A stretch of DNA of 64,000 nucleotides, from contig JAWCLO010000001.1 of NCBI GenBank assembly GCA_038850735.1, positions 142,138 to 206,137 on the forward strand, written 5' to 3'. This DNA is from Methanomassiliicoccales archaeon (lineage in GTDB: Archaea; Thermoplasmatota; Thermoplasmata; Methanomassiliicoccales; JACIVX01). Positions within the stretch are counted from its first letter, which is position 1; each line of letters begins with the position of its first letter. Position numbers and translations under genes: made by a program. The notes beneath the pieces were generated by a model, which saw nothing but the letters and a program-made list of their open reading frames with translations, was not told where the DNA came from and did no database searches. Shown in pieces: positions 57,619-60,048 of this stretch.

Positions 57619-57834
57619 ATGAATGAGAAACCTCTGTGTTTTTCCTGCCTCTTCCTTGAGGAGAGGCCAGAAGTAGGGGTGAACAATAGACTTATATATT
57701 GTAGAAAGAAAGATAAAATCTTAAGACCAAAATCGAGCTGTGAGTTCTACATTTTAGCTACCGAAGAAAATCGAAATGAGTTACAAAGCCAGCTGTACGG
57801 AGTTTTCTTCGAGGATGAATTCGAAGGAGAATAA
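57619..57834 (+). CDS. Small cysteine-motif protein
   Basis: A 71-residue protein starting MNEKPLCFSCLFLEERPE, with later cysteines in LIYCRKKDKI and KSSCEFYIL. The C-x2-C ... C-x11-C spacing suggests one metal site. The C-terminus is acidic (FFEDEFEGE). AGAAGG eight bases before the ATG is a good ribosome-binding site. It sits between glpC (same strand, 48 bases away) and the convergent GvpD-like pair. Function unknown. Confidence 0.65.
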   Translation: MNEKPLCFSCLFLEERPEVGVNNRLIYCRKKDKILRPKSSCEFYILATEENRNELQSQLYGVFFEDEFEGE

Positions 57835-57838
57835 TATT

Positions 57839-58525
57839 TCATTGCCCCCATTCGAGAAGTGTGATTCTCGATACATCTTGAAGTTGTTTGATTTCAAAAG
57901 GTATCCACTGCGATGATGTGAGCTGTCCTCGCATATGCCTAATCCTCATCTTTCTGTTCAAATGTTCGTCAAATTTCAATTCAATTACACCATCGGCCAT
58001 AGCCATTAGATGATTAACTGTCCTGTCATCATGGACTCCATCATGAACGGTGAAAACAGCCATTCCGACTTCAGATCGTATCCTTGATGATGATATCTGG
58101 AAGAACTTCAAAACAACATTTGCCTGATTGTAAAGGAATAACGTAGATAACGAGTGGACAAATACTTTCAGAGATGTACCTACCTGTTCTGATATTCCCA
58201 GAAGGTTGAACATAATCCCTTCAATATCAGAAACTCTCCGAATAGCCACGTCGTCACATTTAGAGCGAATATCTGCTCCACCAAGGAGACTCGAATGATA
58301 ATCGACGATGAAGAGATTTGTCCCCAATACGTCATGCGGATCGACGCCAAAGGATTCTAGAAGACTCAACAAGTCGCTTGGAAGACAGTCGATTGTCACG
58401 AACACCACTTTTTCCCCTTTTTCAAGATATTTCTGAGCTAGCCCTACATTGAATTCCAGAAGTCCGATGCCTGGACTCCCTATCATAAGGATTGACGAGT
58501 TCTTGGGGAGCTCAAATCGCGCCAT
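57839..58525 (-). CDS. Degenerate RecA/KaiC-like ATPase-fold protein
   Basis: A 228-residue protein with the RecA/KaiC architecture but a broken P-loop: SILMIGSPGIGLLEFNVGLAQKYL keeps the fold yet lacks Gly-Lys-Ser/Thr. KVVFVTIDCLPSDLLSLLESFGV and LKVFVHSLSTLFLY (Walker B-like, no acidic residue) follow in the expected order. It probably cannot bind or hydrolyse ATP normally. The longest frame starts at 58603 inside the upstream gene; ATG 58525 with GAGGT before it is preferred, 12 bases after that gene's stop. Most likely a partner or inhibitor of the upstream ATPase. Confidence 0.72.
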   Translation of the reverse strand: MARFELPKNSSILMIGSPGIGLLEFNVGLAQKYLEKGEKVVFVTIDCLPSDLLSLLESFGVDPHDVLGTNLFIVDYHSSLLGGADIRSKCDDVAIRRVSDIEGIMFNLLGISEQVGTSLKVFVHSLSTLFLYNQANVVLKFFQISSSRIRSEVGMAVFTVHDGVHDDRTVNHLMAMADGVIELKFDEHLNRKMRIRHMRGQLTSSQWIPFEIKQLQDVSRITLLEWGQ

Positions 58526-58536
58526 AGCAACCTCAC

Positions 58537-60048
58537 TCACACAATTGGAACTAGGGAAATTGGACTGCCTTCCGTCTTTTCCTCGAATTCCAAGCCATAG
58601 CATGCTGTAAAAGGTTTCTCACCATATACAACAACTGTTCCCCTGATTGTATCGATTCTGATATGTACCGTTGCTAAATCTGCTATGCGTCTCAGAGATG
58701 AAGCTGAGGAGGGTGCCATGCCAACGAAGATGGCATTATTCTTTCTCACTGCGGTGAGATGATCAGTCAGCTGATCAACCACTTTGTCCCCGTAAATTGA
58801 TTCAAGTGTGTCAAATCCCATTAGAGACAATAAAGGCATAGATGATGTTTGGAGTGCATAGGTGAGATTTTGCCAGCTAAGATCATGCGCTGCAGATTCA
58901 CCTTCGATGGGAAGTAGGTATTTCTGGAGAGTGTTTATATGAGTGGCTTTTTCTGGAATCCTTACGTGTTCATCAAATTCCACTTCACCAACGGAAGTGG
59001 ATAATCGATTCCTCAGAGTTTCAGCGCTCGCCTTCCGCATTGGCATCCAAATCACCCCCCTACCTTGTGAAACGAAGTTAAATACCAGAGCTTTTTCAAT
59101 TGCCAAACTCACGCTCGTCGGAATTCCGTATCCAAACTCAATAAGCACGATTGACCCTTTTTCAACTCCACCTCCAAGCAACCGATCCATGTCTCCTATG
59201 CCGAAAGATATGAGCCCATTCGAATCTTTAATCGATTTCCACTTGATCCGTTCTGAAAGGTCAAAATAATACGCTGTGCCGAAAGTCCTTACTCGACCTC
59301 CTGAAAGGGAAAATAGGCAGTGTGTATGCTCTATCTCAAATCCCCTCAATTTCTTTATCTCGATCTCCCTGATTCTCCTCATTCGGTAATCTAACAATTT
59401 TAATAACACAACACCGTCTGCGAGGTAATCCAATTGAGTGTCAGCGCTTTCTAGCACGAACAGGACACTCACGCCACGGCATTCCACAAAATCTGATTGA
59501 ATTGTTGTAATCAAATCAGCACAAGTTTTCCCGTACCTTTGTGCAAGTGCATCAATGCTATCGATGATAATGAGGACTTTTTCCTTTTCATACCTATTAA
59601 TTATGTCACGGAGAATTTCCACTTCCTCGAGATCATTACCAATCTTCAGAACAACATGCTTCTTTGAAATCTCGGAAATACCGGCAGATTCAAGAGTCAC
59701 TCTATCGGACCCGTTTTCGTCACTTGTCGTCTTTCCATGTCCTTCTTTTGCATGATGCGCTGCATAGAGCGCTATGCTACCCTCAAGTATTTTCTCTTTA
59801 AGCCATGGAAATTGAGATATCAAAGAAGCATCGGAAACTCGAGTGGAAAGATAGAAGCATTTTTCCTCTGCTCTCAATTCTTCTACTAATTGAAGAGCAA
59901 GTGTAGTTTTGCCTGTGCCAGCATTCCCTCGCAGTATCATTGATCGACCGCCTTTCTCTGCTAAAAAGGCGAGTATTTCTGAAGGAAGTCTGGAATTTCT
60001 TTTCAAGATTCCATCAGACGCAAATGCCGACTTGGCGGCGCTGTTCAT
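58537..60048 (-). CDS. GvpD-like double RecA-domain P-loop ATPase
   Basis: A 503-residue protein. Domain 1 (about 20-235) has an intact Walker A, RGNAGTGKTTLALQLVEEL, a sensor-like CFYLSTRVSDASLISQFPWL, and Walker B KVLIIIDSIDALAQ. This order resembles archaeal GvpD proteins, named after the gas-vesicle repressor but widespread in archaea without gas vesicles. Domain 2 (about 255-490) starts GIGDMDRLLGGGVEKGSIVLIEFGYGIPTSV, a KaiC-like fold with no Lys-Ser/Thr. Together with the downstream gene there are three RecA-like domains and one working P-loop. It is divergent from the glmU-like gene. Confidence 0.78.
   Translation of the reverse strand: MNSAAKSAFASDGILKRNSRLPSEILAFLAEKGGRSMILRGNAGTGKTTLALQLVEELRAEEKCFYLSTRVSDASLISQFPWLKEKILEGSIALYAAHHAKEGHGKTTSDENGSDRVTLESAGISEISKKHVVLKIGNDLEEVEILRDIINRYEKEKVLIIIDSIDALAQRYGKTCADLITTIQSDFVECRGVSVLFVLESADTQLDYLADGVVLLKLLDYRMRRIREIEIKKLRGFEIEHTHCLFSLSGGRVRTFGTAYYFDLSERIKWKSIKDSNGLISFGIGDMDRLLGGGVEKGSIVLIEFGYGIPTSVSLAIEKALVFNFVSQGRGVIWMPMRKASAETLRNRLSTSVGEVEFDEHVRIPEKATHINTLQKYLLPIEGESAAHDLSWQNLTYALQTSSMPLLSLMGFDTLESIYGDKVVDQLTDHLTAVRKNNAIFVGMAPSSASSLRRIADLATVHIRIDTIRGTVVVYGEKPFTACYGLEFEEKTEGSPISLVPIV

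Follow-up and report, generated by a model that had tools for sequence, protein, structure and literature searches.

A conserved archaeal gene pair joining a GvpD-like ATPase to a KaiC-like pseudo-ATPase: a probable nucleotide-dependent gene-control switch

Two adjacent genes in the window (the whole 64,000-nucleotide stretch of DNA analysed), here called A and B, form an old pair that has been kept together and that probably acts as a nucleotide-dependent gene-control switch. The host genome is 1.66 Mb long at 98% completeness. Both genes lie on the minus strand, A first and then B, and across them are three KaiC/RecA-like folds with a single complete P-loop, in domain 1 of A. The two-gene unit of three RecA folds and one complete P-loop proposed in the original prediction was found at its place, as were the motifs it listed: the intact Walker A and the Walker B of A domain 1, a second domain without Lys-Ser/Thr, and the altered loop of B. 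The spacing, given there as 12 bases, is 11 from the A stop to the B ATG. The first mechanical start of B, at 58603, would overlap A, and the start at 58525 matches the ortholog length. The features are as follows.

58537..60048, minus strand: gene A, GvpD-like, two KaiC/RecA folds, 503 aa (ORF, profile matches, structure model)
59902..59931, minus strand: intact Walker A of A domain 1, RGNAGTGKTT (K47 and T48 in 28/28 alignment rows)
59557..59574, minus strand: Walker B of A domain 1, LIIIDS, in the context LIIIDSID (D163 and S164 in 28/28 rows)
59113..59145, minus strand: dead P-loop of A domain 2, LIEFGYGIPTS (E304 in 27/28, G306 in 28/28, P310 in 27/28)
58807..58830, minus strand: Walker-B-like strand of A domain 2, LSLMGFDT, Asp413 kept (28/28)
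58526..58536, minus strand: A-B gap of 11 bases, holding GAGGT, a Shine-Dalgarno-like run (read from the sequence)
57839..58525, minus strand: gene B, single KaiC/RecA fold, putative pseudo-ATPase, 228 aa (profile matches, structure model)
58451..58480, minus strand: dead P-loop of B, GSPGIGLLEF (G16, P18, G19, G21 and E24 in 34/34)
58142..58168, minus strand: Walker B strand of B without Asp, HSLST (alignment of 34 B sequences)

Both proteins match known profiles far above chance. GvpD_P-loop (PF07088) matches A at 8.6e-15 (55.6 bits against a cut-off of 24), and GvpD_bR2 (PF20440) scores 47.5 bits against 27.9, but through profile positions 1-98 of 254 only. The KaiC profile PF06745, with a cut-off of 26.6 bits, matches A (6.4e-12, 45.8 bits) and B (2.4e-14, 53.7 bits). 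The same check, suggested with the original prediction, left the narrower models below their cut-offs: the NCBIfam KaiC equivalog far below (A 43.7 and B 27.7 of 408 bits), ArlH NF052589 (A 21.1 and B 19 of 215 bits) and RadB (A 17 of 278 bits in one model and 15.9 of 172.4 in another; B not among the listed matches), and identities as ArlH, RadB or clock KaiC were rejected on these scores. A role in anti-phage defence was also rejected, as PADLOC touched only the P-loop stretch of A (25.4 bits) and gave nothing for B. DUF7504 and DUF7090, domains of unknown function, resemble the B rows by profile, each matching all 29 B rows of alignment A1 at E 0.01 or better; the B of the window matches DUF7504 above cut-off over profile positions 101-179 only, and DUF7090 below cut-off. 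Another protein in this genome, of 655 aa (L153:5071-7074, contig C6), has a C-terminal DUF7504/KaiC-like domain and weak N-terminal matches, and proteins of its size class match in many relatives.

The structure models agree with these assignments. That of B (pLDDT 84.4) finds its best match in PH0284 (2dr3; Z 24.2, 2.0 A over 202 residues), and that of A (503 aa, pLDDT 82.9) has two RecA-like domains and matches double-domain KaiC over residues 19-503 with Z about 21, the domains being turned differently (the rmsd is about 18 for the full match and 2.6 when domain 1 is taken by itself). All three domains thus share the fold of KaiC and of archaeal KaiC-like ATPases (PF06745; PH0284, PH0186, SSO2452), and A shares the double-domain layout of KaiC, but two of the three sites in the pair are dead and A lies far below the NCBIfam KaiC cut-off. 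KaiC has a catalytic Glu pair; A domain 1 likely lacks it and reads T-R after the second strand, a reading taken from position, since the profile alignment did not reach the stretch where the pair would fall.

The live and the dead sites are both conserved. Conservation was counted over 28 rows for A (alignment A2) and 34 sequences for B. The Walker A of A domain 1 is also kept in 46/46 rows of a larger alignment that includes near-duplicate loci, while the rows shown for A domain 2 lack Lys-Ser/Thr and keep G306 and D413 throughout. Walker A Lys and Ser/Thr are absent from all 34 B sequences: the Lys position holds L in 17, M in 15, V in 1 and S in 1, and the next position L in 33 and P in 1. 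The Walker B Asp is likewise lost in every one (H 25, Y 6, N 2, Q 1), and in alignment to 2dr3 B reads D-L in place of the Glu-Glu of that KaiC-like relative. B is best read as a pseudo-ATPase from which the canonical phosphate-binding residues have gone. The invariant loop residues indicate that the site was lost before the families split and that its shape is still constrained; Asp46 is invariant as well (34/34). With a mean identity of 0.89, against 0.69 for B as a whole, the dead loop ranks 23rd among 219 windows of ten residues; it is one of the better-conserved stretches of the protein, which points to a kept role. Along one edge of B, R194, R196 and M198 are found in 34/34 and R199 in 32/34 (K in the other 2), and the equivalent edge of A, K233-L-R235-G, keeps K, R and G in 28/28; the edge of B is less well kept in families f8 and f24. 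Local decay, with B a pseudogene on its way out of this genome, might be suspected from f8, where B is degenerate and divergent or missing in some genomes, but orthologs 52-71% identical to the B of the window (28 rows) carry the same dead motif with its invariant residues, 34/34 in all. Intact P-loops in close homologs, which would have pointed to decay, did not appear, and for this order we give that explanation practically no credence.

A and B are close to inseparable in the genomes where B occurs. We searched 101 genomes including this one, taking E 7.6e-40 or better as a strong match to B and 1e-30 or better as a strong match to A. B has strong matches in 38 (43 with weak matches included) and A in 44; for A, weak matches, which are short and lie in family f2, add 14 genomes and bring the number to 58. 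All 38 strong-B genomes fall within the 44. Most named relatives with the pair bear the label of Methanomassiliicoccales or of taxa within it, and some only that of Euryarchaeota or Thermoplasmatota. Homologs usually lying apart would have spoken against a unit; A lies directly upstream of 37 of the 38 distinct B ORFs in the loci examined, the exception being at a contig end. The neighbour survey finds A and B adjacent in Methanomassiliicoccales and, outside that order, in families f8/f24, in two different settings. In Methanomassiliicoccales the stretch glpABC-small-B-A-glmU-glmS is conserved, with glmU-like and glmS genes divergent from A in 24/25 testable loci and a glp or small gene convergent on B in 24/27; in f8/f24, purH is near A in 10/10 loci. 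The small protein gene (57619-57834) goes with the glp genes by strand and spacing, not with A-B. It is kept beside them across the order, its four cysteines (CxxC, C, C) are present in 16/16 true-frame members, and a Pfam search with it gave no match. Passive synteny, with A and B functioning separately, would account for a whole stretch kept in order; it is very improbable, given that the two genes stay adjacent in f8/f24 despite the different context and that, among the rows compared, the dead B copies are only those adjoining A.

In 300 sampled genomes of the class, B-like proteins are found in 67 (E 1e-12) and A-like proteins in 223 (E 1e-20). The P-loops of B relatives form a series GK[TS]E, GK[LF], G[LM]LE: family f13 reads GPPG[SA]GK[TS]E, families f19, f23, f27 and f31 keep Lys in GP[PS]GVGK[LF], and B of Methanomassiliicoccales and f8/f24 has neither Lys nor Ser/Thr. 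On a tree of 38 hand-picked B-family rows and 4 KaiC-like outgroup rows the three states need 3 changes, against a shuffled mean of 16.1, and all dead rows fall on one side of a weakly supported branch (69/49). Lys is lost in 24/24 rows adjoining A and kept in 14/14 not adjoining A, the latter judged by the absence of A within loci of 5-7.5 kb. The independent events are few, and the association of adjacency to A with loss of Lys is suggestive only.

Elsewhere the relatives of A adjoin a different gene, H, whose best Pfam match is the winged-helix family HTH_20 (above cut-off in 2/3 proteins scanned). Thirty complete A loci were chosen by us from the nearer A clades (A' paralogs of the same order, f8, f24, f13, f19, f23, f25, f27, f28, f31), and H is on the strand of A in all 30, within about 300 bp in 29 and 2.1 kb off in one. 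The gene order in f8/f24 is H-A-B in 6 loci and H-A in 3; H-A without B in the f8 loci L147-L149 indicates that B is dispensable there, and the f24 locus L119, which ends at a contig end inside A, cannot be judged for H. Across genomes, H is found in 47/101, in 44/44 of those with a strong A match and 3/57 of the others, a co-occurrence confounded by family f2, nearly all of which lacks H. Two groups depart from this arrangement. Type-3 A paralogs of the same order (L134-L137) have a live domain 1 and neither B nor H beside them (0/4). In a distant A clade H adjoins A in 0/8 loci and a Roadblock/LC7-type gene is directly upstream in 5/8, four of these above the Pfam cut-off; it takes the place of the winged-helix gene at L173, L174, L175, L177 and L180, from other Thermoplasmata families.

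In this genome no H gene lies beside the pair within the window, and its three H genes are on other contigs. No H gene lies within the 13-15 kb of L144-L146. Assigning one of the two H genes on contigs C16 and C9 to A-B was considered and set aside, as on the H tree both fall in an unresolved fork together with the H linked to A' and that of f8/f24. One H gene of this genome (L159:2988-3350) immediately precedes, on the same strand, a gene resembling PAS-PAS histidine kinases. A second GvpD-like paralog of this genome, A' (L004:6086-7711, contig C3), stands in an operon-like row that also holds SRP54, a methyltransferase, a DUF7121 protein and a single winged-helix gene; most relatives have two winged-helix genes at this place. 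The row is divergent from purB, an arrangement of purB and A' seen in 8/8 complete A' loci and also in the two loci of f13. Purine genes were rejected as targets, as purB and purH are not found in the other A loci examined and may reflect lineage synteny.

The tree of A sequences makes the f8/f24 group and the A-B group of Methanomassiliicoccales sisters (100/97), and the latter also contains the type-3 genes without B. In the simplest scenario A-H came first, and B took its place next to A in an ancestor shared by the f8/f24 and Methanomassiliicoccales groups. H would then have left the Methanomassiliicoccales locus, and B would have been lost in some f8 genomes and beside type 3.

The likeness to GvpD extends beyond the P-loop. 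GvpD of Halobacterium aligns with 96% of the length of A (tblastn 4e-20 to 5e-16), at an identity of only 22-23%; it (L112) and a Haloplanus homolog (L113) have, as A does, a live domain 1, an STRV motif and a dead domain 2. This shared layout makes the dead site of A domain 2 an old trait of the GvpD superfamily, much older than the loss in B, whose site decayed apparently stepwise in lineages with B beside A. The original prediction had spoken of one built-in loss of two sites; two losses of different age fit better. It had also held that the GvpD label says little about the role, which was too modest, as gvpD adjoins gvpE and the A relatives likewise travel with winged-helix regulators. The partner gene of this A is B and not a regulator gene, A matches only part of the GvpD_bR2 profile, and the genes beside A are B, glmU-like, glmS and glp, not gvpE or gas vesicle genes. 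A search of the genome for gas vesicle PF00741 gave no match, but neither did its control, so absence is not shown. GvpE scores as a PadR-type winged helix (5.3e-7), and H was rejected as a demonstrated GvpE homolog (hhalign E 0.15).

A plausible scenario, to which we assign a probability of about 0.5, is that A and B form one regulatory complex in which domain 1 of A is a nucleotide switch controlling a winged-helix factor in the manner of GvpD. A and B would be co-translated and be partners in one assembly of KaiC-like folds, with A domain 1 its sole canonical nucleotide-binding site. A domain 2 and B, which keep the fold and the shape of the glycine loop and lack the phosphate-binding residues, would for that reason offer binding surfaces, stand as neighbours in a ring or form a cap. 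Binding or hydrolysis of ATP in A domain 1 would alter the hold on a winged-helix transcription factor of the H family, perhaps the product of the displaced H gene, by analogy with GvpD acting on GvpE, B being a non-catalytic partner. According to PMC4390858, GvpD oligomerises, and its Walker motif and an Arg-rich region are needed for it to bring about loss of the activator GvpE. The regulatory switch with dead partner domains that was originally proposed thus stands as the best reading, with conserved losses and genes that are nearly always neighbours; the single built-in loss does not.

In KaiC a Lys-x-Arg edge forms a trans finger that reaches the ATP site of the neighbour. The residues kept along the corresponding edge of B suggest that it may complete the live site of A, and the weaker edge in f8/f24 argues against this as a general rule. 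Tentatively, B may have started as an active ATPase that was captured by a regulator of the GvpD type. Once beside A it would have given up its own site (GK[TS]E to GK[LF] to G[LM]LE), and as a subunit of a mixed KaiC-like ring it would lend the conserved Arg of M-R-G to the one live site in A.

Two other explanations accept the pairing and differ on what it does. The complex may be real and its target not a transcription factor, B having replaced H so that the pair switches an enzyme or assembly directly (for example near glmU-glmS or glpABC). B does adjoin A in Methanomassiliicoccales where other lineages have H, L144-L146 are devoid of H, and the glmU-glmS and glpABC neighbours are conserved; but these neighbours are on the opposite strand and so not co-transcribed, their synteny may be passive, and H genes persist elsewhere in every strong-A relative. 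We regard this explanation as doubtful. B might instead bind a nucleotide or other ligand non-canonically through its glycine loop and the invariant Glu24 and Asp46, and the constancy of G16, P18, G19, G21, E24 and D46 (34/34) would suit such a role. With Lys, Ser/Thr, the Walker B Asp and the Glu-Glu pair all missing, and the Lys position hydrophobic in 33/34, non-canonical binding is unlikely.

Archaeal KaiC-like proteins as proposed regulators, with GvpD counted in their superfamily, are already in print (PMC4858521). No description of the A-B pair was found in the literature searched, and part of it may already have been published; this analysis adds a pseudo-ATPase that has kept its fold as the partner of a GvpD-like regulator and, in the related lineages sampled, the placing of A-like genes beside winged-helix regulators. 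Archaeal KaiC-like ATPases have been proposed as signalling hubs, mostly without known partners, and the pair supplies one by name. How this partner lost catalysis can be traced stepwise across lineages, and the winged-helix regulators beside A-like genes are a likely class of targets. Methanomassiliicoccus is a cultured member of the order. If B is indeed a captured ATPase, the pair would make up a signalling ring, in archaea, whose ratio of live to dead subunits is built in. The A-like genes and their neighbours carry the gvpD-gvpE theme beyond gas vesicles, to a module found across Thermoplasmata.
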